From: Tessaracoccus coleopterorum
GTDB lineage: Bacteria; Actinomycetota; Actinomycetes; Propionibacteriales; Propionibacteriaceae
Assembly: GCF_011174705.1 (NCBI RefSeq)
Contig: NZ_JAANIJ010000001.1
Span: forward strand, 2,852,001 to 2,916,000
Direction of reading: 5' to 3'
Length of the DNA stretch: 64,000 bases
The notes beneath the pieces were generated by a model that had not been told where the DNA came from, did not search any database, and saw only the letters and a program-made list of their open reading frames with translations. The position numbers and the translations under genes are program-made. Of the stretch, positions 315 through 45,438 are shown piece after piece. Positions within the stretch are counted from its first letter, which is position 1; each line of letters begins with the position of its first letter.

Positions 315-1905
315 ATGAGCCAGGGCGATGATGACTTCGAACTCCTCAACTCGAGACCCTTCTTCGGGTGGGAGGAGGCCAAGCGGGACGAGGTGATGGG
401 CCGGGCCGTCTACCAGCAGGCCGCGAACCTCCGGGCCATCAAGGCCACCCAGGCAGCCGACGCGGCGAGGATGCGCGCCGAGTTGTCGCAGCTCAGCGGC
501 TCCGTCGAGAACCGGCTCGCCGCCCTGACCCGCTCGTTCGGCGCTTTCGTCGAGCTGGACGCCGCGCGGCAGCAGTTGGCCGCCTTCCCTGAACACGTCA
601 GGGCCCGCCGGCTGGCCCTCAACGACCTGATGGCCCTACGCGCCGGTCAGGCCCCGCCGGAGAGGCCCGACATCGAGGGCTACTGGCTGCCGCCGGCCGT
701 GGCGGCGCTCCAACCGGGCGGGGGATCGACCAGGCCAAGGCGGCGGTCGCCCTCCAGCGGGACCCGCGGCAGCACTCTTCCTGCTTGTCGCGCGGGCAGT
801 GCTCGGCGCAGGCCCGCAGGTTGCCGCCGATGTGGTGCGCCTTCTTGCGTCGACGGCCGGTGAGTGGGACGAGACGCAGCAGCGGCTGTGGCGGGTCGTG
901 GTCGCCGGCGGCTTCGGCCCCACGCGCTCGGCTCCCTGATGTCCGGCCTGCAGGCGACGATCGGAGCCGAACAGGGCTGGGACGAGTGGCTCGGGAGCCT
1001 CGCGCGGCCCGGCGGCCGGAGCCTTGAGCAGGTGAATGTCCAACTCGGGAAGGTCCTGGGGTGGAGCCCCACCCGGGACGGTGGGCCCGGAACTCACCGC
1101 CACGGAGGAGGCGGCGGGGCGGCGCCACCGCAGCGGGACGTCGACGTCGCGGCAGACCGGGCCGGGGCGCAACCGCGTCCGGGCGCCGAGATACCGCTCC
1201 TCGAGTTGGCCACGCAACTGATCGAGGAGGGCGACGGCGGGGAACGCGCCCTGCTCGAGCGCGTCGAACTGCTCCGCCTGCAGATCGCCAACCCGGGGGA
1301 GGACATCGCGGACCTGTCCGTGGAAACACCGCCGCGGCGCGTCGTCGACCTCGTCCGTGAGCTCGCCGTCGATGAGGCGGCCGACGGGGCCGCCCGGCGG
1401 CAGGCCTGGCGGGCGCTGCTCGAACCCATCGATCGGTGGGTCGCCGGGGCCGGTGAGCCGAGCCCGCCTCCCGGCCGGAGGTGAAGGTCATCGGCCAGAG
1501 CTTCATGGCCCGCCCGGACGGTGTCGACCCGGGTGAGCTGAGGCGCGCCGAGAGGGCGATCGCCAAGGAGGGCGAGCCGTCGGTGTGGAACCGGCGTGCC
1601 CCCTGCTCCTCTGGGGAGGCGTGAGCGTGGCGGTGTTGGGCGTGGTCCTGATCGCCCTCACCGGTCAGTGGGGGTTCTTCCTGCTCGTCGTGCTCGGCGG
1701 GATCGGGGTCGGGCTGGGGTTCCGGTTGGGCCAGGACGGCACGGAACGTGTCGAGCGCGCGGAGGGCCTCCGGCGGTCGCTGGCCCGGGAGGTGGAGGGC
1801 GCGACGAGGCGGGCCGCTTCCGAGTATGACGCCGCGCAGGCCGGGTATGCCGCCCGGGTGGAGGATCTGGAGAGCTACCGCGCGCTGCGCCGTCAGGTCG
1901 GGTGA
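315..1905 (+). CDS. Membrane-anchored hypothetical protein, broken by several frameshifts
   Basis: I do not recognise this gene. The reading starts MSQGDDDFELLNSRP at 315 and is charged, helical and coiled-coil-like to about 700. It then passes through at least three frames; the middle part reads IGAEQGWDEWLG and later ATQLIEEGDGGERALLERV. The last part (from about 1585) holds two adjacent hydrophobic segments, around LLWGGVSVAVLGVVLIAL and FFLLVVLGGIGVGLGF, followed by a helical tail ending at 1905. Coding character is continuous over roughly 530 codons in one direction, so I read it as one gene with indels rather than several small genes. It would be a mostly cytoplasmic coiled-coil protein with a C-terminal membrane hairpin. 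The exact frameshift positions and the middle 150 codons are uncertain. Confidence 0.5.
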
Positions 1906-2010
1906 TCCGGAAAACGCGTCGGGCGACGACAGGGGCGTGCCTGCGTCGGCGTTCGGTGCCCGGCGGGTCGGTTCGGGGAACCGGTGGCGGACGCCCCGGG
2001 GTCGGGCAGC

Positions 2011-2626
2011 ATGAGCCCCATGGCCACGCACTACTACACCGCCTCCAGCCTCGACGGGTTCATCGCCACCCTGAGAACTCGCTCGACTGGCTGCTCAGCC
2101 AGAAGATCGACCAGGACGGCCCGATGGCCTACAAGGCGTTCGAGCGGACCATCGGGGCACTCGCCATGGGGCCACCACCTACGAGTGGGTGCTGCGCAAC
2201 GATCCGGGACCCTGGGGCTACGGGCAGCCCACCTGGGTATTCACGCACCGGCAACTCCCCATCCCCGAGGGGGCCGACATCCGCCTCACCAGCGCCGACG
2301 TGCGGGAGGTCCACGCCGAGATGGTCGTGGCCGCAGAGGGTCGGGACCTCTGGGTGGTCGGAGGCGGTGACCTCGCGGGGCAGTTCGCCGACGCCGGGCT
2401 GCTGGACGAGGTGTGGGTGCAGTTCGCGCCGGTGACGCTGGGGGCCGGTGCGCCGCTGCTGCCGCGGGTACTCGACCTGGAACTCCTCGAGATGGCCCGC
2501 AACGAGAACTTCCTGTGCGGGCGCTACCGCGTCGCACGGCCCGCGGGGACGCGGACTCTTCCACGGGAAGGTGACCCACGCACGATGCGGAGGCGGCTGA
2601 CCCGCGCACGATGCGCAGGCGGCTGA
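2011..2626 (+). CDS. Dihydrofolate reductase-like / RibD C-terminal domain protein (frameshifted)
   Basis: The N-terminus reads MATHYYTASSLDGFIA, the standard first strand of RibD_C/DHFR-like reductases, from an ATG at 2011 or 2020. The middle (SLDWLLSQKIDQDG...) and the C-terminus lie in two other frames. The C-terminal part carries the family signature LWVVGGGDLAGQFADAGLLD and then PVTLGAGAPLLP. Members bind NAD(P)H and reduce small heterocycles, and many actinobacterial paralogues have no known substrate. About 200 residues after repair matches the family. The reading frame runs into a 26-bp tandem repeat at its 3' end, so the true stop may lie slightly upstream. The two shifts are near 2075 and 2180. 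Confidence 0.75.
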
Positions 2627-2644
2627 CCCGCTCACGATGCGCGG
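2580..2644. repeat. 26-bp tandem repeat, about 2.5 copies
   Basis: The unit GCACGATGCGGAGGCGGCTG plus ACCCGC occurs at 2580-2605 and again with one substitution at 2606-2631, followed by a partial third copy. It overlaps the 3' end of the RibD-like gene, and each copy carries an in-phase TGA for some frame. Confidence 0.7.
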
Positions 2645-2683
2645 TCGGGTCGGTGCTCAGCTGCGTGGCGCAGGGGTGGGGAG

Positions 2684-2965
2684 CTACCAGTCGGCGTCGA
2701 GGATGCGCGCCAACTCCCCGGAGGCATCCGGGCTCCCAGCGTCGGCGAGCCGCTGCAACTCCACCAGGTCCCGTCGGGCGACCGCGCGGCGTGTCAGCAG
2801 CAGGCCGGCGTGCTCACAGCCCTCGTCAAGCAGTTCCGAGAGGCCCTCCAGGTCGCCACGCGCGTCGAGCAGATCAGCGAGCCGGTCCTGTGCAGCCTCG
2901 TTGCCCTCGTCTGCGAGCGCCCGGAGGATGTCCTCGTCGAACTCGTGGGCGTCATAGCTCCTCAT
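2684..2965 (-). CDS. Small acidic helical (TPR/Sel1-like) hypothetical protein
   Basis: This intact 93-codon gene starts at ATG 2965 (MRSYDAHEFDEDILRAL). The protein is a run of short amphipathic helices (ALADEGNEAAQDRLADLL, then LEGLSELLDEGCEHAGLLL, then LVELQRLADAGSPDASGEL) that look like degenerate TPR or Sel1 repeats, so a protein-binding scaffold is plausible. Its start overlaps the reconstructed 3' end of crtU (TGA at 2954-2952), so it is probably the last gene of the carotenoid operon by translational coupling. No enzymatic motif is visible, and a carotenoid role is inferred only from position. Confidence 0.7.
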   Translation of the reverse strand: MRSYDAHEFDEDILRALADEGNEAAQDRLADLLDARGDLEGLSELLDEGCEHAGLLLTRRAVARRDLVELQRLADAGSPDASGELARILDADW

Positions 2966-4475
2966 GCACCCAGGATGCACCCGGCCGAGGCGACGTCGGG
3001 ATGTGCCTGCCCTGACGGGCGAGCAGCCCGCGTGTCGGGGGTGACCAGAGCGCGTGCCCGGGGCGCCCCACCCGGCCAGCAGGCAGTTGGCCGCGTCCCA
3101 CCCGGTGGTGGCGGCCCGTTCCATCAGCGCGACCGGGAGGTCAGAGCGCACCAGGTCGCCGGCGAGGACGATGCGGGGATCGGTGGTGGCCACCGTCGGT
3201 CTGTCCGCCCACGGCGAGGTGTCGACGAGCGGGCAGTCGCGCTCGACCAGCCACTCCTCCGCCACGACCGGGGCGTCGATGAGGGAGGGATGCACGCGCT
3301 CGGCCTCGGCCCACAGCCGCGGCCTGATGCCCACCGGGGAGGGGAGCGCATACCCGTGCACCTCGATCACCGCCCGCGGTGGCGCCTCGCCCACGCGGCA
3401 GCGCCGTCCTCGAACGCGTCGAGGCGTGAGACGTTGTCGAGCGGGCCGTACCCACTGGTGCCGAGGAAGGCGGGCAGATCGGGCTGCGGCCGGGCGAGCC
3501 AGCGACGCCCCACCGCGAACGCCGGAGCGACCCGGAGCCGCGAGATCCCAGCGCGCCACCCGGGTGAGCCGATCCGGTCGGAGGCGCCCACAACCGACTG
3601 CAGCGCGGAGGTGTCGAGCGCGAGCACGACGGCATCGGCACATTGGTCGCCGTCGCCGGTCACGACGCGCACCCCGTCGCCGTCCGGCTCGAGGGCCTGT
3701 GCCCTCACCCCGCACCGGATCTCGACGCCCAACCCCGTCAGGTACCGGCCGAGCGGCGCCCAGAGCGTGGTGTCGTAGTCGTCGCGTGGGACGTCGAACA
3801 GGAGCCCTCCGCGCTGCCGAGGAAGTACGTGTGGAACATGGCGAGCAACTCGCCCCGGAGAACTCCCGCGGGTCGGCGAAGAAGCTCCGCGCGAACACCT
3901 CCAACGCCAGGTGGCGCGCCTGGTGGGGGAACCGGAGCCGATCGAGCACGTCGGCCGCGCTCACGCCGTCCAACTCCCGGAAGGTGCCGGGGAAGTCGAC
4001 GCGCAGCAGATCGAGCGCACCCTTCACGTCCACGGCTGCGAGGTCGCGGAGGCGGAACGTGGGGCTCAGGGCGACGAAACCGAGCACGCTCCACGGTGGG
4101 GTGCGGGGCACCCGGGCGAAGGAGTCGGTGGGCCCTCCCGCCAATGTCAACGGGTAGTCGGACACGGCCCTGAGGCCCGCGAGCCCGGGGTCGGCCCGCC
4201 GCAGCAGGGCACGCAGGTTGTAGTACTGCCGGAAGAACGCGTGGAAGCCGCGGCTCATCGTCCGGCCGGCGCCGAGCGGCCATGCGCGGACCCGACCACC
4301 GAGCTGGGTTGCGCCTCCACCACGGTGACGGCCACACCGCGTTCGGCGAGGCCGGTGGCCGCAGCGAGGCCGGCGATGCCACCGCCACCACCGTGACGCG
4401 TGGCCGCTCAGGCCCCGTCCCGAGGGCGTCGGAGGAGCGACCCGGACGGCGCGCGGGTCGCGGCCCGGCCGCCAC
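2952..4475 (-). CDS. crtU: CrtU: beta-carotene desaturase/methyltransferase (isorenieratene synthase), frameshifted
   Basis: CrtU converts the beta-ionone rings of beta-carotene to aromatic chi-rings, giving isorenieratene. The diagnostic stretch MSRGFHAFFRQYYNLRALLR is present near residue 55, followed by FRLRDLAAVDVKGALDLL, EVFARSFFADPREFSGA, MFHTYFLGSAEG and the C-terminal PRIVLAGDLVRSDLPVALME (FAD-binding). The N-terminal GGGIAGLAAATG dinucleotide fold lies in another frame just after RPRVTVV. About 508 codons after repair is the normal length. At least four indels split the gene. The start is a GTG at 4475, next to the crtYd stop at 4480. With one indel near 3060 the C-terminus reads GHALWSPPTRGLLARQG and ends at TGA 2954-2952, overlapping the next gene. 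Confidence 0.88.
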
Positions 4476-4479
4476 CGCC

Positions 4480-4799
4480 TCACGACTCGCGCCTCCGGCC
4501 GCGGCGGCCGAGGGCCTCCCAGGCGATCAGGCAGGCTGTGATCAGCGCGAACCCGAACCCGAAATCCTCGATCGGGATGTCCCACGGGAACCTGATCCCG
4601 GAGAACTGCCCGGGTGGTAGCTGACGATCGGCGCGGAGAGCTTCGTGAGCCACCCGTCCACCAACACCTGGAAGGCGAACATGATGGCCAGCGCCAGCCA
4701 GTACTGCGCCGTCCGGAAGATGCCCGTTCGCGCCAGCAACAGTTCGACGAGCACCACGACTGCCATCGCGAGCAGCGTCGCGGCTGTGTACTCAGGCAT
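4480..4799 (-). CDS. crtYd: CrtYd-type lycopene cyclase subunit (frameshifted)
   Basis: One half of the heterodimeric actinobacterial lycopene cyclase. It is a three-helix membrane protein of about 106 residues (MPEYTAATLLAMAVVVLVEL, then YWLALAIMFAFQVLVDGWLT). After one indel near 4610 the reading gives FPWDIPIEDFGFGFALITAC, whose P-x-E-(D/E)-F motif typifies the CrtYc/CrtYd/CarRP cyclase family. The ATG at 4799 overlaps the end of crtYc by 8 bp. CrtYc/CrtYd pairs make beta-carotene, and the related CrtYe/Yf pairs act on C50 flavuxanthin. With crtU present and no lycopene elongase seen, the beta-cyclase role is preferred. Confidence 0.85.
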
Positions 4800-5133
4800 C
4801 GGGCCGCTCCGACCTGGCGCGCCATGGTCTCAACACGGTGCCGACGGCCTCGTAGGTGAGCAGCGCGCAGATGGGAATGACGACGAAGAACGCGATCTCC
4901 TCCAATGGAATCCCTCCGGGCAGGACGATGCCGGTGGTGTAGTCGGGGGAGAACCTCCAGTGCTCCCGCCGGATGGCAAGGAGATCCCAGACGACGAACA
5001 ACGCCGCCACCGGCACCACCGCGAGCAGCATCCGGCCCGGACGGCGGTAGACGCGCGCCGCGAGCAGGAACTCGAGCGGCAGCGTCAGGATCAGGCAGGC
5101 CGCCATCAGGGCCAGGTAGTGGAACCGTTCCAT
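4792..5133 (-). CDS. crtYc: CrtYc-type lycopene cyclase subunit
   Basis: This intact 113-residue protein (MERFHYLALMAACLILTL) has three membrane helices and the cyclase motif GGIPLEEIAFFVVIPICALL, equivalent to the PxE(E/D)xxF signature. It forms the lycopene beta-cyclase with the overlapping crtYd product and acts in the membrane on lycopene. It starts one base after the crtB stop (5135), so expression is coupled. It is one of the few unbroken genes in this operon. Confidence 0.9.
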   Translation of the reverse strand: MERFHYLALMAACLILTLPLEFLLAARVYRRPGRMLLAVVPVAALFVVWDLLAIRREHWRFSPDYTTGIVLPGGIPLEEIAFFVVIPICALLTYEAVGTVLRPWRARSERPDA

Positions 5134-5134
5134 G

Positions 5135-5983
5135 TCAGAGTCCCGCCCGCAGCGCGGTGGCCGCCTTGGTGAGGAGCGGGACGCGGGCCCGCCCCGTGAA
5201 CACGTCGAAGTCGCGCTCCTCGATGCGGCGGAGGATCGCCGAGTAGAGCTGCAGTGCCGTGCCGACGCAGCGCGCGGAGGCCGGCGGCAGCAGGGGGACT
5301 CCGGCCTCCGCCTCCCGGTACAGCCGCCTGGCCCGTTCGATCTCGAAGCTCATCAGCGACCGCCACGCGTCGTCGACGGTGCGGGCGGCCGGATCGGCGC
5401 CGAAGCGACGGAGGTCGGCCTGCGGGAGGTAGACCCGGCCCGCCCGAGGTCCTCGCCGACGTCGCGCAGGAAATTGGTCAGTTGGAACGCCAGGCCGAGC
5501 GCCCGCGCCGGGCCGATCGCGGCGGGGAGAGCGGCTCGAGCACCGGCAGCATCATCTCGCCGATCACAGCCGCCGATCCCTCCATGTAGCCGCAGAGGTC
5601 GTCGAAGGTCTCGTAGCGTGTCACATCGAGATCCATGGCCATGGCGTCGAAGAACCGGTCGAAGCAGTCGTGGGCGATGCCGCAGGTGCTGACGGTGTGG
5701 GCGACCGCGGCGAGCACATCGTCACCCGGCAGGGGGTCCCGGCGAGGACGGCTTCGAACCTGGCCCGGAAGTCGGTGAGCGCGGCCCGCGTCGCGGCGGT
5801 GTCGCCGAGGGTGGCGCCCGGGGCGTCGACGATATCGTCGGCCAGTCGGCACAGGGCGTAGACGGCGTGGACGTGGCGCCGTCGGGGACGGGGGAGCAGC
5901 ACGGCGCCCCAGAAGTAGGTCGTGCCGTGGGCGCGGGTGAGCCTCGCGCACTGCGCGTAGCCGCGCTCGAGCGCGGTGCTCAC
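5135..5983 (-). CDS. crtB: CrtB: phytoene synthase (frameshifted)
   Basis: CrtB condenses two geranylgeranyl diphosphates to phytoene. The GTG start at 5983 overlaps the crtI stop (GTGA). The N-terminus reads VSTALERGYAQCARLTRAHG, with YALCRLADDIVDAPGA supplying the first DxxxD site. After indels the second site reads LTNFLRDVGEDLGRG followed by RVYLPQADL. The intact C-terminus is SFEIERARRLYREAEAGVPL. The reconstructed length is about 283 codons, normal for the family. At least three frameshifts occur between 5480 and 5800. Confidence 0.9.
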
Positions 5984-7444
5984 CGGGTCGCTCCCAGATA
6001 GTGGCGCACGCGTCGCGCGGCCAGCTCGCCGCTGATCAGCACCATCGGGATGCCGACTCCGGGTGTTGTGCCCGTGCCCGCCAGGAACACCCTGGGCGTC
6101 GCCGCTCCACGTTGGAGGGTCGGAACGGGCCCGTCTGGCCGAAGGTGTGCGCCAGGCTGAACGGCGTCCCTGCGGCCATGCCCTGCGCGGCCCAGTCCGC
6201 TGGCGTGACGAGGGTCTCGGCGACGATGTCGGTGGGGTAGCCGTGGTGCCGCAGGAATTCCAGCAGCCGCTCCCGCAGCCTCGGCCCTCGGCGGCCCAGT
6301 CCTGGCCACCCTCCAGGTTCGGCACCGGTTCGAGCACGTACAAGACGCTGTGGCCCGGGGCGCCATCGTGGGGGCATCCACGGTCGGGACGGTGACCATC
6401 CGCGATGGGTCGCTCATCAGCTCGCGACGCCCGATCAGCTCTGAGAACGCGCTGTGCCAGGCACGCCCGAAGTGGATGTTGTGGTGCGCCGTCACCTCCG
6501 GAGGTGTGCCCCGCACCCCGAGGTGCCACACGGCGGCCGACGGTGAGTAGCGGCCTCCGCGTGCCGCGCGGGGTGGCCGCAGGTCGGGAAGCAGCGTCCG
6601 GTAGGCCGTCGGCAGGTCCGCGGTGACGACGACTGCATCGGCCATCAGGGCCTCGCTTCCGGCGCTCACCCCGCCACCTTGCCGAGGGAGTCGGTGAGGA
6701 TCGCGTCGACCGTGGTGTCGTAGAGGATCGTGGCCCCGGCCGAGGTGAGCGAGTCGGCCAGGAGCCGTGGGACGGCGTGCATGCCGTCAGCTGGGAAGAA
6801 GACGCCGCCGATCGAGTCCATGTAGGTGATCACCGCATAGAGCGCGAGGGCATCGTCGGGGGCCAGCCCCGCGTACATGGCCTGGAAGGTGAACAGCCTC
6901 ACCAGCCGCTCGTCGCGGAACCGGCGCCGGATGGCCGGCCCGAGGCGGGCGAACCCGCCCAGACGGATGAGCCGAGCCGCCGCGCGTGGGCGGCTGAGCA
7001 GGTCGAGCGGGGAGTCGAAGTTCCGGGCGATGAAGTTGGGCACCTCGACGTCGTGGAGGTCCTCGAGCCAGGTGACGAACTCGCCGAAGGCGTCCGCGTC
7101 GGCAGCGGAGCAGCGCTCGGCGATCTCCCGCGTCATGGCGGGCACCGAGTCGCGCACGTCGAGGATGGATCCATCGGCGAAGTGCCCGCGGTAGCCGGGG
7201 TCGAGACGTTTCAGCCGCAGGCTGTCGAGGCTCGCGCCGATCCGCTCGAGGGGAGCGGCGAGGAGCCCGGGCATGGTGAGCACCGTCGGGCCGGTGTCGA
7301 AGGTGAAGCCCTCGGTACGCAGCACGCCGTTGCGCCCGCCGGGTGTCGACTCCCGCTCGAAGACCGTCACCTCATGGCCGTCGGCGACCAGGTGGCAGGC
7401 GGCGCTCAGCCCCGAGAGGCCGGCGCCGACCACGACAACGCGGC

Positions 7445-38635: not shown

Positions 38636-38854
38636 TGTACCCGATCTCGTCGTGTTCAGTGCCCGATTTCGGGACGTCTGTCTTCCCTAGGCCTCTCATA
38701 GCCGGTCGGTGATGTAGTCCGGTAGGGACTCGTCAGGTTCGTGTTGTCGCCTGGCGGTCTTGGTCGCACCCCTGGCCCGCCGTGCTTCTTGATGTTCCTG
38801 GCGTACCTCACGGTCACCGACGATCGGGTGATCTCGGCGGAGGGAAGGTCCAGG

Positions 38855-39931
38855 ATGACTGCGACGGAGGAAGTACGAGCCAAGCGGGACGCGAAGCTCG
38901 ATGAGCTGCACGAGAAGCTGACTGGCGCGGTGGAGACGCTGGTCTCCGGGCGGGACTGGGCCCGCGCGTTGGCGTTCGCGGCCCGGTTCCGATCGCGCTC
39001 GTTCAACAACACGCTGCTGATCTGGGTTCAGCACGAGGCTGCGTTCGAGGCTGGCCGGGTGCCCGGGCCGGTGCCGTCGTATGTGGCTGGGTATCGGCAG
39101 TGGCAGCAGCTTGGCCAGCAGGTGCAGAAGGGCCAGCCGGGTTACATGATCTTCGCTCCGGTGACCGGCCGGTTCGCCTCGTCGAATCCTGGTGATCCGT
39201 CGTCGTGGCGTCGTTTGGGTCCGCGCGAGAAGCACAAGGTCAACGAGGTAGTGCGCACGAAGATGGTGGGCGCTCGGCCCGCCTATGTGTGGGACGTGAC
39301 GCAGACCGAGGGCGATCCGATCCCTGAGCCACTCGCACCGAAGCTGCTGGACGGCGAAGCCCCGCAGGGACTGTGGGATGGCCTGGCCATGCAGGTCGAA
39401 GCGTTGGGGTTCGAGGTGCTGCGTGTCCCGGATGACGGGCGGATCGGCGGCGCGGACGGCCTGACCGACTACGTCGCTCGGCAGGTATCGGTGCGTACCG
39501 ATGTGACGGAGGTCAATCAGATCGCCACGTTGGCGCACGAGCTGGCGCATGTGCTGATGCACGACCCCAAGGATGAGGACGCTCGCCAGCATCGGGGTGT
39601 TCGTGAGGTGGAGGCCGAGAGCGTGGCGTTGATGGTCGGTGCTGCGCACGGGTTGGATACCAGTGGTTACACGATTCCGTATGTGGCGGGGTGGGCGTCG
39701 TCGGTCAAGGACGCTGAACCTGTGGAGGTCGTCAAGGCGACCGGTGAGCGGGTGCGGAGGACGGCGCTGGGCATCCTCGACCAGCTGGACACGTTCCAGG
39801 TCGCCGATGGCACGCCGCCTGGTCTTGCGCGTGATGTTCCCACTGCGGAGCCGAAGGCGCTGCATGTGCCGCCGCCGTCGGAGCATCGGCCGGCGGCGAG
39901 GGTGCCGGTGGTGGCGGGTCGGGGGTTGTGA
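38855..39931 (+). CDS. ArdC-like antirestriction protein with metalloprotease motif
   Basis: This intact gene of about 358 codons is preceded by GGAGGGAAGG. The N-terminal ArdC ssDNA-binding domain (DELHEKLTGAVETLVSGRDW, SFNNTLLIWVQHEAAFEAGR, QKGQPGYMIFAPVTGRFA) is followed by an ImmA/IrrE-like zinc peptidase part, TLAHELAHVLMHDP with Glu in REVEAESVALMVGAAHGLDT. ArdC protects incoming single-stranded DNA and blocks type I/II restriction in plasmids. It precedes the primase-polymerase fragment with a 1-bp overlap (TGATG). An upstream in-frame start at 38741 is less likely. Confidence 0.88.
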   Translation: MTATEEVRAKRDAKLDELHEKLTGAVETLVSGRDWARALAFAARFRSRSFNNTLLIWVQHEAAFEAGRVPGPVPSYVAGYRQWQQLGQQVQKGQPGYMIFAPVTGRFASSNPGDPSSWRRLGPREKHKVNEVVRTKMVGARPAYVWDVTQTEGDPIPEPLAPKLLDGEAPQGLWDGLAMQVEALGFEVLRVPDDGRIGGADGLTDYVARQVSVRTDVTEVNQIATLAHELAHVLMHDPKDEDARQHRGVREVEAESVALMVGAAHGLDTSGYTIPYVAGWASSVKDAEPVEVVKATGERVRRTALGILDQLDTFQVADGTPPGLARDVPTAEPKALHVPPPSEHRPAARVPVVAGRGL

Positions 39932-40195
39932 TGCCCGCGCGTGCCGACTTCACCAGGGCGTTGTTGCGTGCCAGTGGTGCTTCGACGCTGGCGGCGTCGG
40001 CCCGGCATCTCGCGCAGGTGGGGGTGCCGGTGTTCCCCTGCCAGCCGAGTGGGAAGCGTCCGCTCACGACGCGGGGGTTCCACGATGCCACCACCGACAT
40101 CGGCCGGGTCGAGGCGTGGTGGTCGCGGACTCCGGAGGCGAACCTGGGTGTCCCGACTGGCGTGGTGTCGGGGATGGTCGTGGTGGATGTGGACG
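39931..40195 (+). pseudogene. 5' remnant of a bifunctional primase-polymerase gene
   Basis: The first 88 codons of a prim-pol gene survive: ALLRASGASTLAASARHLAQ, VFPCQPSGKRPLTTRGFHDA, TTDIGRVEAWWSRTPEANLG and the first catalytic Asp pair in GMVVVDVDV. The reading then enters the IS3 left end at 40196 and ends after 15 aberrant codons. No downstream part of the primase is found on the other side of the insertion, so the gene is lost rather than simply interrupted. It would have primed replication of the element. Confidence 0.82.
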
Positions 40196-40238
40196 TGAAT
40201 CGCCCCGGGTCTCGTGGAGGGTCTGAAATCCCGAGAGG

Positions 40239-40536
40239 ATGAGACCTATGCCAGCACCGAGGAAGTATCCGCCGGAGCTTCGTGAGCGTGCGATGCGGCT
40301 TGTTGCCGAGGCCAGGAAGGAAGATCCGGAGCTGTCGCTGAACGCGGCGGTAGTCCGGATCGGGCAACGTGTCGGGGTCAACGCCGACACGTTGCGTGGC
40401 TGGTGCAAGCGGGCCGCGATCGACGCGGGCGAGCGCCCTGGGACGACGACCAGCGAGGCGCAGCGCATCAAAGCGCTCGAGGCCGAAGTGCGCGAGCTGA
40501 AGCGTGCGAACGAGATCCTGTTGGCGGCGTCCTCTT
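40239..40536 (+). pseudogene. IS3 transposase OrfA, C-terminus displaced by insertion
   Basis: The HTH protein reads MPAPRKYPPELRERAMRLVA, VGVNADTLRGWCKRAAIDAG and the leucine-zipper end LEAEVRELKRANEILLAAS. At that point the 2.97-kb unit enters. The expected continuation FFARELDPRLPW is found at 43510-43547 on the far side. The aberrant frame ends at 40568. Confidence 0.85.
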
Positions 40537-40552
40537 ATGTGGGTGATCGCTG

Positions 40553-42400
40553 TCAAGCGGTGGCTTGATCGAGGCCTTCGAGGAGGTTGGTGTAGATCTC
40601 GGCGCGGCGGGTTTGGCCTTTGGCGCAGGCGTCGTCTCGTTGGGCGATGAGGGTGGGCCGGTGCTGCTGGGTGGTGAAGAACATGGGGCAGGTTTCGCAG
40701 ATCGTTTCGTAGCGGCAATCGAGCTCGACGGGCCGGCGGCAGTAGCCGTTGCCCAAGAGTCGTTTGTTGACCTCCGCATGCAGGGCGGTCATGGCTGGCC
40801 CGGCGGCCTCGGCGGGCAGGACGGGGATGGCGGGCTCAGCATCTTGGTAGAGGGCTTCGATCTTGCTGGTGACTTGGAAGTACTGGTCGGCGACGGTGCG
40901 GTCACCGATGCGGGCGTAGACCATCGTCATCGACAAGTCGGCGTGGCCCAGTAGCGCGGCGATCGCTTCGAGGCTCATGCCGCGGTTGATGGCTTGGGTG
41001 GCAAGGGTGTGGCGCAGTTGGTGGGGTGGACGTGGCCGATGCCCGCGGCAGTGGCGGCTTTCTGGACGGCTTTGTCGACGCGGGTTGGTGGAATGGGTCG
41101 TCCGCGTTCGAGCAGGAGCAGGTCGCTGGCCTGCCAGGACGGGCGGTGGGCGATCCAGGCGTCGATGAGGGTTTTGAGGGCCGGGTCGAGGGGATGTAGC
41201 GGTCGGTGTGGAGTTTCCCGACCGGGGTGCGAAGCCAGTAGCCGGTGCCGATCTGGACGACGGCGTTGATGCGTAGTCCGAGTAGTTCGCCGCGTCGCAT
41301 GCCGGTGCGGGCCAGGATCTGGATCATCAACCGGTCGAGTTCGTCGGGTAGCTGTGCGGCGGCGGTCATGAACGCGGCAGCACGGGCATCGTCGAGGAAC
41401 TTGGGCAGTGGCTTGTCCAAGCGTGGACGGTCTTCGCGGAAGACCAGAGCGCCGGTGGGCAGGTCGGGATAGCTCCATTCGGTGATACGGGTGAAGAAGG
41501 TATGCAGGTGACCCATCCGCATGCCCAACGTGGTCTTTGACAACCCGGTCTGGCCGCGGTAGCCGGGTCGTTGATCAAGCCAGGAGCGGTAGTCCTCGAT
41601 GTGGCAGCGCTGCAGGTCGGCGATGCGATTGACCTCGGGGTGGTGGGCGATGAGGTATCCGGCGAATTGCCGCAGGGTGGTCTCGAACAGTGTCACTGAT
41701 GAGGGCCGTAGTGAGGCGTGGCATTGCTGCAGGTAGCGGCGCATCGTGGCAGCCATCACCGGAACATGGGTGGTGATCTGTTCCCAGTCGACCTCGGCGG
41801 CGCTGCGCGTCGCCCATGGCCGGCGGACAGCCGGTTGCGGTGCTTGCCCGCGGTGGAACATCACCGCATCCAGCCCGAACAGTGGCGTCGACAACCATCG
41901 GGCGGCGCGCTCGCTCGGGAGGCCATCACGGCATCGAAGTAGCTGGTGCGCGCCTGCTGGTAGGTCTGTGTGGTCAGGGCATCAGGGCTGGTGCCGGCGA
42001 TCACGCAGATGCGCGCCAGATGGGACCACATGCGTCGGCTTTGTGCCGTGGTGAAGCCCAGCTCGAGGGCTTGGGTGGTGAATCTGTCGCGCTGCTCGGG
42101 ATAGGCGTCAGCGATGTAGATGCCCCAGTGGCAGCATGACTGGGAGACGAAGTCCGGGGTGACCGGCAGGCTGCTGGCGATGGCGGCGTGAGCAGCGAAC
42201 GACATCACCTCGGTGCGGACCTGGCGGCGTTGCTCGACGCTGGCGTGGTTCCAGCCGTCGAGATCACCGAACAGCCGACCGAAGCGCTGTGCCGCCAAGC
42301 GACGGCCCTTCGCCGACGCTGAGCTGGAAGCAGCCGCAATGTAGGAGGCCGTCACCTCCTCAAGAGCCGGACTGGTGCTGGTAGGGGCAACAGCGGTCAT
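40553..42400 (-). CDS. Large tyrosine recombinase, TnpB-like (frameshifted)
   Basis: About 616 residues. An N-terminal helical domain (MTAVAPTSTSPALEEVTASY) is followed by a SAM-like core-binding domain (VPVMAATMRRYLQQCHASLR, SVTLFETTLRQFAGYLIAHH). The catalytic domain has Arg in ILARTGMRRGELLGLRINAV, then in another frame HxxR in HPHQLRHTLATQAI, the late His in IAALLGHADLSMTMVYAR and the Tyr two residues later. The C-terminal tail has a Cys cluster (GYCRRPVELDCRYETICETC) typical of long TnpB-like recombinases. Indels lie near 41890, 41220 and 41000. Its ATG overlaps the upstream recombinase stop. Confidence 0.85.
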
Positions 42401-43419
42401 GGACGGGGCCCTTCCTCGATGGGTGGGTAGACGTCGCTCAACACCTGCATGGCGTCGCGGTACTGGTCAGCGAGCCAGTCGTTGGACAAGTGGAGGTAGA
42501 TGCGGGTGGTCTCCAGGTTGGCGTGGCCGGCCTGGGCCTGAATCGCCTCCAAGGCCATGCCCGCCTCCCTCAGCCGGGTGAAGCATGTGTGACGCAGTTC
42601 GTGGCAGGTCGCGTGTCGCAACCCGCGCGACCTCGGGCCCCAGCAAGGACTTCGTCCAGCCCTGCTGCGCTCAACGGCATGCCGCGGCGGGGTCCCTTCA
42701 ACACCACGAACACCAACCCGGTGTCACACTCCGGGGACGCTCGGTGGTCAGGTAGGCGGCCAGGTGGGTGAAGAACGCGTCGACGACCGGGACGATACGT
42801 TCGTGGCCGCCCTTGCCCTGGTGGACGAAGACCCGTCCATCGCCCAGCTGGATGTCGGCCAGACGCAGGCCCAGCACCTCACAGCGTCGCAGTCCGGCGT
42901 GCAGCATCAGCGTGACCATCGCCCGGTCCCGCTCGGTGCGCAACGCGCCCATCAACGCGACCGCCTCGCCCGGCGACAGCACCTGCGGCAGCCGTTTTGG
43001 AGCACGGACCAGCGGCGAGCCCCGCAACGACCGCGACCGGGGCGTCATCGACCGAGGAACCGGCTGCCGCTCACACACACCGCGGGCCAGCAGGTAGTCG
43101 AACAGCGAGGTGACCGTGGCCAGGCGGCGTTTGATCGTGGACGCCGCCAGGCCCTGCTCGCCGTCGACCAACCGGACCACGTTGCCGCCATGGCGAGGTT
43201 CACGCTGCTGCTCGATGAAAGCCAACACATCCGCCGTGCCCACCCCAACCGGTGGCTTGCCCACCACCGTGAAGAAGACCTTCAAGTCGAAGGCCTGCGC
43301 CAACACCGAATTGGGTCGCAGACGCGCCGCGGTGAACCTCAGATACTCGTCCACCCACTGCTCACCCAACCTGGGTGGCTGCCCTCCACGAAGACCAGCT
43401 GTGGCACGAACCCATCCAT
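42397..43419 (-). CDS. Tyrosine recombinase, TnpA-like (frameshifted)
   Basis: A core-binding domain (VDEYLRFTAARLRPNSVLAQ, LKVFFTVVGKPPVGV) is followed by the catalytic domain with Arg in LMLHAGLRRCEVLGLRLADI, Lys in VFVHQGKGGHERIVPV, HxxR in CHELRHTCFTRLREAGM, late His in AIQAQAGHANLETTRIYLHL and Tyr in the same segment. About 341 residues. An indel near 42690 splits the catalytic domain. ATG 43419 (MDGFVPQLVFVEGS) with a small indel, or GTG 43435, could be the start. It is translationally coupled (ATGA) to the larger recombinase. Confidence 0.85.
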
Positions 43420-43503
43420 CACTGGCCCCAGCCACTCGAAGACACCACCATCGTCACCGCCGCATCGACGGCCTGCTTCATCGGGGTCCAGATCACCTAC
43501 ATA

Positions 43504-44486
43504 TCAAGCCGTTTTTCGCGCGGGAGCTCGACCCGCGACTGCCGTGGTAGTTCAGTTCATCGACGATCATCGTGACCGGTTCGGGGTCGAGCCGATCTGC
43601 CGGGTGCTCACCGCGCGTGCCGTGCCGATCGCCCCGTCCGGGTACTACGCGTTCAAGAAGCGTGCGCCGTCGGCGAGAGCTATCGCGGACGCGGAGTTGA
43701 TCGTGCAGATCGAGCGGGTGTTCTGGGACCGCAAGCTGGGCCGCGGGATCAGCGGAGCCCGGAAGATCTGGCGGCTGCTGCGCCGCGAGGGCATCATCGT
43801 CGCCCGTTGCACGGTCGAAAGACTCATGCGGGAGCAGGGGCTGCGCGGGGTCCGTCGTGGGAAGCAGTTCATCACCACGAGAGCGGACGGTGCGTCGTTC
43901 CGGCCCCGGATCACGTGCAACGCTGCTTCCGCGCGGACCGGCCGAACGAGCTCTGGGTCGTCGACTTCACGTATGTGCCGACGTGGTCGGGCATGGCATT
44001 CACCGCTTTCGTCACCGACGTGTTCTCGCGGAGGATCGTGGGCTGGCGGACCATGGACCGGATGCCGACCGATCTGCCCTTGGACGCGCTGGAGATGGCG
44101 CTCTGGGTCCGAGACCGGGCCGGTCAAGACGTCGCGGGAGTGATTCAGCACTCGGACGCGGGAGCTCAATACACCGCGATTCGCTACGCGGAGCGACTCG
44201 CGGACGTCGGCGCGATCGCGTCGATCGGGACGGTCGGCGACAGCTATGACAATGCCCTCGCCGAGAGCGTCGTCGGGCTCTACAAGACCGAGTGCGTGAA
44301 GATCGACGGCCCGTTCCGCACCGCCGATGAGCTCGAACTCGCCACGCTCTCCTGGGTTCACTGGTTCAACGAGAACCGCCTGCACTCATCGATCGGATAC
44401 CTCACACCCATCGAGAAAGAGAACGAGTACTACCGTGAGAACAACCCCAGCACCAGCCGGCGCTGGGAGAACTCGCCCTCCACTAA
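43504..44486 (+). pseudogene. IS3 transposase OrfB with the displaced end of OrfA
   Basis: After the inserted unit the orfA tail PFFARELDPRLPW ends at 43550. OrfB overlaps it in another frame: VVQFIDDHRDRFGVEPICRV, APSGYYAFKKRAPSARAIAD, RKIWRLLRREGIIVARCTVE, then WVVDFTYVPTWSGMAFTAFV (first catalytic Asp), IQHSDAGAQYTAIRYAERLA (second Asp) and DNALAESVVGLYKTE (Glu). With one indel near 44440 it ends ALGELALH at TAA 44486. The DDE residues are intact, but separation from orfA should abolish the OrfAB fusion. Confidence 0.82.
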
Positions 44487-44500
44487 ACCCGGGCGATTCA

Positions 44501-44901
44501 GTCCTCAACCACACACCCGGCAGTTTCGCCGCGGTGCCGGCAGTAATCGCCGGGATCGCGGCCTGGGTCGCCGGCGACGGCGCCAGCGCCAACATCGCCC
44601 TGACCCGAGCACAAGCCGCCACCACCCGCCTCCGCGCGTCCGGGCCCGCCGAGTTGCTGGAAGCCGTCATCGACCAAGTGCTGCCGCCCTCGGCGTGGCC
44701 CTCAGTCCGAGGCCGGATCCTGGAACACGCCGGTCAGGCCGTTCACCACGCCCTCATCACCCACATCCGCGGCGCCCGGACCACCACCCGGCAGCCAACG
44801 CATTCGCGCCTGAGGCTGGCCGCTCGCGTCCAACGACGACGCACAGCGGCCCACGCTATAGGCCCCGGGCGCGCCGGTTGTGGCGCACCTGGTCGGCATG
44901 A
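44501..44901 (+). pseudogene. 3' remnant of a DUF4192-like gene
   Basis: Directly after the IS right end the reading SVLNHTPGSFAAVPAVIAGI, AAWVAGDGASANIALTRAQA and AELLEAVIDQVLPPSAW resembles the C-terminal helices of DUF4192 proteins, which neighbour primase-polymerase genes in actinobacterial elements. The N-terminal half is absent. With an indel near 44820 the end is RRLWRTWSA at TGA 44901, overlapping the next ATG. The identification is from memory of the family pattern and is tentative. Confidence 0.55.
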
Positions 44902-45438
44902 GGAAACACACTCCCGAACCCGTGCCCATGCCGGTCACGATCCCGACCGTCCTGCTCCAAGTCCGCGCCGATGGCACCGTGGACGCCACCATCGAGGGCC
45001 ACCCCTGCTCCCACCCGAAGGAGTCGGCCGGTGGCGGCGGTCATCGCTGCCGCAGATCATCGACCACGCCAGTAGCGACCGCACCATCCCCGTGCGGATC
45101 GAAGTCCACGAAGTCGACCAGACCGTGTTCACCGACATCATCAGCGCCCGCCCACCACGCCAACCCACGCCAACCGTCGAAACTGAGCCCGAGCCGGGAC
45201 CCCGACGCGGCCGACGCGCACTCCCACCCCAGACGCCACGCCTGGTCGAAGTCAGCGGGATGGGTTCGTACCGGGCGAAGACGTAGCCGTCGCCGTCATC
45301 GTCGGCCACACCGACGCCACCGGAACCGGCCACGTCAGCGCCCTGATCGACCTCGACACCCTGCCCGACAGCGCCACGCACGAGGCGATCCTGCTCGGCC
45401 GCATCTCAGGAACCCTCGCCATGCGGCGGCTCCCATGA
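44898..45438 (+). CDS. Conserved element protein upstream of the coupling-protein gene (frameshifted)
   Basis: About 180 residues from ATG 44898: MRKHTPEPVPMPVTIPTVLL, then LPQIIDHASSDRTIPVRIEV, HEVDQTVFTDIISARPPRQP, a Pro-rich linker and, after a further indel near 45260, GFVPGEDVAVAVIVGHTDAT and EAILLGRISGTLAMRRLP. It overlaps the next gene by ATGA. The fold is unknown. The Pro-rich hinge between two compact domains and coupling to a T4CP suggest a transfer accessory protein, by context only. Confidence 0.65.

Follow-up and report, generated by a model that had tools for sequence, protein, structure and literature searches.

A probable minimal site-specific transposon, distantly related to Tn554 and specialised for IS3-family transposase genes

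In a 64,000-nucleotide stretch of the Tessaracoccus coleopterorum genome (contig NZ_JAANIJ010000001.1, positions 2,852,001 to 2,916,000; hereafter the window), an IS3-family element is split by an inserted unit carrying a tnpA-like and a tnpB-like tyrosine recombinase gene (Table 1). We consider it very probable that this unit is a minimal site-specific transposon, a distant relative of Tn554, specialised for IS3-family transposase genes. The original prediction, made from the letters of the window alone, had suggested a separate kind of transposable unit with IS3 genes as its target, and the copies found elsewhere bear this out: each of the 16 found for the clade to which the unit belongs (the A clade, support 100/99 in a tree of 22 TnpB proteins) occupies one and the same place in IS3, immediately ahead of the FFA-ELD codons at the 3' end of orfA.

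The sample consisted of actinobacterial genome sets and the best plasmid matches (loci are labelled L, genomes G). Of 198 genomes of the family, 19 matched a C-terminal stretch of TnpB (E <= 0.001); with the whole protein (E <= 1e-60), matches were obtained for 12 of 391 genomes in the order and for 5 of 394 in the class. A scan of GTDB contigs with two narrow peptide patterns yielded 10 loci, among which L049 duplicates L035. A tblastn search against plasmids returned 1011 records with any match; 11 of them (H1-H10 and H16) were examined as possible relatives, and plasmid record H99 was added later as a yardstick. Phage records contained no close relative among 199 (all below 60% identity, none covering 80%).

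Three of the A-clade copies are in the genome of the window itself (the window copy, L002 and L003), and other genomes contributed L032 (G014), L033 (G087), L067 (G379), L046 from a Nocardioides metagenome-assembled genome, and a decayed piece, L040 (G039). The plasmid copies, from Rhodococcus, are on pRhX5 (L056, L153, L154), pLP337 (L112), pREL1 (L058), pLP156 (L113), pLP4 (L111) and USK10 unnamed2 (L057). Twelve copies, L040 included, are in forward orientation and four (L002, L111, L153, L154) are reversed; both ends could be read in 13. The original prediction had called for a search for the recombinase pair and its ends in other genomes. The left end TATGTGGGTGATC is identical in 15 of the 16 copies, being decayed in L040, and at the right end lineages differ from one another by 1-2 bases. 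The L003 copy retains its first 465 bp and is then cut, from position 1966 onward, by another element, a transposase gene that is probably IS256-like. Rows that repeat counted loci were left out of the total (among them L004-L006, L023, L026, L064-L066, L076, L078, L079 and L114), as were L013 and L025, both equal to locus L040, and L082, a D-clade row whose ends were not found. The tree places L059 and L060 (46% identity in the best segment) outside the A clade, and neither counts towards the 16; L059 has no IS3 match.

At least 12 different IS3 elements serve as hosts of A-clade units. Compared along 200 nt on the orfA side, 12 of them share 58-78% identity (median 66, 66 pairs; shuffled control mean 51, maximum 65), and for 10 of these the orfB side gives a match to the NCBIfam profile transpos_IS3 (NF033516), above the cut-off for the hosts of the window, L002, L033, L056, L057, L058 and L153 and partially, below it, for those of L154, L032 and L067; for L003, L046 and L040 only the orfA side was read. 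By comparison, the three units of the window's genome (G000) are nearly identical across different IS3 hosts, and on pRhX5 three units, one forward and two reversed, lie in three different IS3s with 0 mismatches over 2956 aligned bases. With only 58-78% identity between the hosts, each of these IS3s must have been entered separately, even though the units are up to 100% identical.

Unoccupied copies of the hosts define the boundaries of the unit. Plasmid pRhX5 also carries two empty IS3 copies (L149, L150), 100% identical to the host of one of its units and with contiguous halves, and empty copies on other plasmids (L108, L109) match the pREL1 and pRhX5 hosts at 99.8-100%. An empty relative of the window IS3, in genome G029 (L089), shares 84% identity over 961 nt of the orfB side, and in this comparison the window flanks join at 40534/43510 with a 1-nt overlap. 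For three hosts the unoccupied sites join exactly, with no target duplication. The rebuilt empty site thus joins as the original prediction expected, except for a discrepancy of 7 nt: the join had been placed at 40536/43504, and the seven bases TCAAGCC past the right repeat belong to the unit. Accordingly, the proposed 2.97-kb unit with 13-bp inverted ends splitting an IS3 element is confirmed as to its ends and its host, with the exact insert now set at 40535-43510. The split had also been thought to fall exactly at the orfA/orfB junction; the site is inside the last orfA codons, before those for FFARELD.

The best view of the coding content comes from the intact copy L032, in another genome of the genus, which is 100% identical to the window unit over the 141-aa TnpB stretch used as query. 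It encodes proteins of 367 aa and 616 aa, both of them Phage_integrase (PF00589) proteins, and nothing else; only about 30 nt lie outside the two genes, and neither a third gene nor cargo is present, in agreement with the earlier statement that only TnpA- and TnpB-size tyrosine recombinases are encoded. The tnpA start codon is uncertain, the Rhodococcus annotation placing it further inside. The 13-bp end repeats are complementary at 12 of 13 bases. Frame breaks interrupt both recombinase genes in the window copy and in L002, the second full copy of this genome, and the sole differences between these two copies are five single-base length changes in G or C runs. As the source assembly in addition has a completeness score of 60.93%, the frame breaks are likely to stem from assembly error. 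Against the pair on Enterococcus faecium pEfmO_03, of the Tn554 family, TnpA aligns with 26% identity over 318 positions (E 6e-33) and TnpB with 26% over 383 positions (E 4e-33). By these alignments the recombinases of the unit are distant relatives of Tn554 TnpA and TnpB. The third gene of the Tn554-family yardstick is PF19776 (DUF6262/TnpC).

When aligned in the IS3 sense, the forward and the four reversed insertions flank one 6-bp core, with an offset of 6 bp. The target stretch at the orfA 3' end reads GC-core-TTTCTTCGCG, the latter part corresponding to the FFA-ELD codons, and the consensus of 11 two-ended sites is GC-core-TTTCTTCGCGGNGG. The target's own core adjoins the tnpB-side end in 13/13 two-ended A-clade copies. 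On the tnpA side there is instead a hexamer that is constant within each lineage (CAAGCC in 5, CATGAT in 7 and CATGGC in 1) and that equals the copy's own target core in none of the 13. Exchange of the two strands across a 6-bp overlap, followed by random segregation, would be expected to give both polarities, and on that assumption a single polarity at 11 distinct two-ended sites would have a chance of 2^-11 (2^-10 if the hybrid L111, described below, is omitted). This single polarity suggests a strand-biased exchange, and, because the hexamer is unchanged within a lineage, one cleavage point should serve for both excision and integration. Papers cited here by PMC number are cited for the passages available from them. 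According to these, SE-6945 carries the target core on the intA side (PMC9345347) and Tn552-II carries it on the tnpA side (PMC12486829), in both cases with the carried-in core at the far end; the core polarity of the A-clade unit is the reverse of that reported for both.

Among other explanations, the unit might be an IS3 passenger that entered IS3 once and was then spread by IS3 transposition or by recombination between IS3s, not by targeted insertion. This would fit an IS3::unit composite of 4306 bp that is 100% identical at two unrelated plasmid places (pRhX5 and pLP337) and bounded by IS3 ends, with a 3-bp repeat GGC/GGC at one place and none (TTA/TTT) at the other, and it would also fit the hybrid on pLP4 with its two different IS3 halves. 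The composite is nevertheless equally well explained by two insertions, as empty IS3s 100% identical to its host are present in both plasmids, while the occurrence of identical units in dissimilar IS3s, in both orientations and with exact joins to unoccupied copies, speaks against passive spread. As the sole route it is contradicted by the three identical units in three different pRhX5 IS3s, and we regard it as very unlikely. Somewhat less remote, yet still improbable, is an ordinary core relay of the Tn554/SE type, in which the donor's tnpA-side core is passed to the far end and the constant hexamer merely reflects few transposition events. The Tn554-like recombinase pair and gene order, the 6-bp core and the lack of target duplication all agree with such a relay, but SE-6945 (PMC9345347) and Tn552-II (PMC12486829), in the passages available, bear the target core on the int/tnpA side, whereas here that side bears the unit's own hexamer in 13/13 two-ended A-clade copies and TGCCTG in 5/5 copies of the related D clade.

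It might also be argued that IS3 elements are simply abundant, a match to the window's IS3 being present in 27 of 39 genomes of the genus, and that elements of this kind land in many places. Sister loci of the B and C lineages served as a control: within flanks of about 0.2 to 5 kb per side, 0/15 interrupt an IS3, 11 of the 15 having been assigned to B/C by best match and not by the tree. The control is weakened by L051 and L052, which have an uninterrupted IS3 nearby, and by L034, which has weak IS3 fragments (E 5e-4 to 8e-4) away from the site. The A-clade copies share a single core position in 16/16 cases. This constancy and the B/C control together lead us to reject chance or IS3 abundance, a scarcely credible explanation.

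Against targeted insertion of a minimal transposon several points have to be counted. The sample is confined to actinobacteria and to available genome sets. A single end was read in three of the 16 copies (L003 is truncated, L046 lies at a contig edge and L040 is decayed), and two of the 16 copies do not represent separate events: L113 is at the same site as L058, and L112, with the same IS3 host, may share its event with L056. L111 is a hybrid joining halves of two IS3s. Unoccupied copies were read for three hosts, the other empty sites being deduced from the IS3 alignment, and the strand-bias and same-cut steps are based on junction patterns only. The window's own recombinase copies are frame-broken, if probably through assembly error, and no movement, circle or recombinase activity has been observed.

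The hybrid L111 is located on pLP4 of R. qingshengii 7B; its orfA half is that of the IS3 of L154 and its orfB half that of the IS3 of L058, and it apparently arose by recombination through unit copies.

In the mechanism that we propose, the two tyrosine recombinases would recognise conserved DNA at the IS3 orfA 3' end (the FFA-ELD codons) and insert the unit in either orientation without target duplication, separating orfA both from its terminal codons and from the OrfAB fusion. A putative circular intermediate would have the junction GATCACCTACATAT-CAAGCC-TTATGTGGGTGATC, or GATCACCCACATAT-CATGAT-TTATGTGGGTGATC for the three identical copies of the soil bacterium Rhodococcus erythropolis X5, and would be made and reinserted by strand-biased exchange at one cleavage point, such that the hexamer is never swapped. 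IS3 would then be used as a multicopy, dispensable and itself mobile target.

Two sister lineages occupy other conserved motifs, in IS3 orfB. The D-clade units (L041, L042, L084, L087 and L028), which have the ends TTAACCGGCTAATC / GATTAGCCGGTTAA or a close variant and the tnpA-side hexamer TGCCTG in 5/5, are all five inserted in IS3 orfB at the motif G-D-x-DNA..E, which presumably holds the catalytic glutamate. Their hosts match transpos_IS3, above the cut-off for L041 and L028 and partially below it for the other three, and the match ends at profile position 311 of 369 in 4/5 and at 299 in L028. Three D rows in the TnpB tree group with support of 90/96 and are drawn as open. The E clade (L047 and L048, support 100/100) occupies W-[FY]N, towards the end of orfB in IS3; both ends were read for L047, whose orfB scores above the transpos_IS3 cut-off, and one end for L048, where a 32-aa orfB remnant scores about the same against IS3 and IS481. 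Among the B/C loci read at both ends, 6/7 distinct ones have sites that end in TCGGCA or TCGACA, the exception being L039. A broader reading, to which we give an even chance, is that minimal transposons with two recombinases form a guild that has become specialised for transposase genes carried by other transposons. Its lineages would recognise different IS3 coding motifs (A, orfA FFA-ELD; D, orfB G-D-x-DNA..E around the presumed catalytic glutamate; E, orfB W-[FY]N), move with an unchanging core through same-cut, strand-biased exchange, and inactivate IS3 while exploiting its copy number and spread.

Several further observations concern these relatives. L028 (G014:C1, about 1280600) is a shortened D unit of about 1 kb in an IS3; it retains its two ends, has lost most of the recombinase genes and is possibly a non-autonomous derivative. 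The L032 region (G014, 1727-6401) is nested: an IS3 with an A unit in orfA has its orfB broken at the LWIVD codons, apparently by another IS3 that itself holds a D unit at the E motif. The B/C units L035, L037, L038, L050, L053 and L061 have a common tnpA-side hexamer, CAAGCA, at sites ending in TCGGCA or TCGACA, and several B/C sites look hairpin-like by eye and are possibly terminators. At L060 (Rhodococcus sp. WAY2 pRWAY02, about 6645), one end of a TnpB-type relative falls within the LGH box of a second tnpB-like recombinase gene, so that, judging by eye from one end of this single case, such a relative may have genes for recombinases like its own as its address. The TnpA/TnpB pairs of L085 (G151) and L086 (G363) are 100% identical in genomes of two different families, which we interpret as recent transfer. 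A possible TnpC-like gene was seen by eye downstream in L043.

Table 1 Features of the interrupted IS3 element and the inserted unit in the window
Feature	Position	Strand	Basis
IS3-family element, interrupted	40196..44500	+	both end sequences; orfB open reading frame (ORF) match to NCBIfam transpos_IS3
IS3 orfA, cut before FFARELD codons	40239..40534	+	ORF list, site reading
6-bp target core GTCCTC, retained on tnpB side	40529..40534	+	L089 empty site; forward/reverse 6-nt offset
Two-recombinase unit, inserted, 2976 nt	40535..43510	.	empty-site join; both-orientation alignment
Left terminal inverted repeat TATGTGGGTGATC, tnpB side	40536..40548	+	sequence
tnpB-like long tyrosine recombinase, frame-broken in window (616 aa in L032)	40553..42400	-	ORFs, PF00589
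tnpA-like tyrosine recombinase, frame-broken in window (367 aa in L032)	42397..43496	-	ORFs, PF00589
Right terminal inverted repeat GATCACCTACATA, tnpA side	43491..43503	+	sequence
tnpA-side hexamer CAAGCC, travels with unit	43505..43510	+	both-orientation alignment
IS3 remainder: last orfA codons and orfB	43511..44500	+	empty-site comparison, transpos_IS3 match

The window IS3 has the inverted ends TGAATCGCCC(C)GGG..., and its orfB ORF scores 195.5 bits against transpos_IS3 (cut-off 160). The frame of the truncated orfA continues into the unit and stops at 40568. The IS3 element had been described as lying inside a primase gene. Its left flank (39928-40242) indeed encodes the N-terminal portion of a Prim-Pol protein (PF09250). 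Its right flank (44501-45286), however, gave only a weak DUF4192 match, and the adjoining bases differ (ACG left, GTC right), with no 3-bp repeat. An IS-mediated deletion at these flanks is possible. Adjoining the primase, positions 38741-39931 encode a protein with an ArdC N-terminal part and an M78/IrrE-type peptidase, which suggests an integrated plasmid or conjugative element.

The present analysis supplies a target rule for recombinase pairs that have been known for more than ten years, and we found none in the literature before. The mobile elements described here take as their address the conserved codons of a transposase that belongs to another element. A safe-harbour strategy, which would also silence IS3, would follow from the use of multicopy, dispensable targets. 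An insertion system that consists of two recombinases and a short site, without a third gene, would be compact and testable, and the core polarity would set the unit mechanistically apart from SEs and Tn552-II. No report of IS3-specific Tn554-like units was found in the literature covered, outside of which are subscription papers and ISfinder.

With Tn554 and Tn552-II (Tn553) the unit shares the tnpA-tnpB order, homologous recombinases, a short core and the lack of target duplication. It differs from the Tn554 family in that the A-clade unit has no TnpC (DUF6262), no cargo and an IS3 target, and from Tn552-II, as described in the available passages, in that its constant hexamer stays on the tnpA side (13/13) and no donor core is moved to the far end. 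Tn554 relatives had been thought to lack terminal inverted repeats; the Tn554 ends are, however, described as imperfect inverted repeats in the part of PMC10214605 consulted. Nor is the compactness noted in the original prediction new in itself: the available passages of Van Houdt et al. 2012 (PMC3414803) describe actinobacterial Tn554-related pairs, some of them without TnpC and pREL1 among them. These include the Famint36/41 pairs on pREL1, pRHL2, pNOCA01, pSCP1 and pBD2, which likewise combine one long and one normal tyrosine recombinase without TnpC. Plasmid pREL1, named there, carries our A-clade copy L058. That paper suggests several similar attB sites, with targets unnamed in these passages and IS3 absent from the main text; relative to its description of Famint36/41, the insertion site, the ends and the core rule are new here. 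In the passages seen of Smyshlyaev et al. 2021 (PMC8138268), TnpA-type recombinases form a subgroup.

The unit resembles SE-6945, as far as the available passages describe it, in its short and long recombinases, 6-bp core and one-sided junction pattern, but it differs from SE and GInt elements in having two genes and not four (intA-tfp-intB-srap and ginA-D, respectively) and in its opposite core polarity. SE-6945 is reported also to have entered insJ in Escherichia coli (PMC9345347). This case was considered as a same-site precedent and rejected: insJ is annotated as IS150, and the sole match within it to SE-6945's reported core is in mid-gene, near codon 120, and not at the orfA end. Like RIT elements, one of which is reported in a transposase gene related to Tn6049 (PMC3414803, same passages), the unit consists of tyrosine recombinases only, between inverted ends; unlike them, it has two adjacent recombinases in place of three, and another target. 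What is known from earlier systems is thus the recombinase type and the compact layout, and what is new is the target rule and the core polarity.

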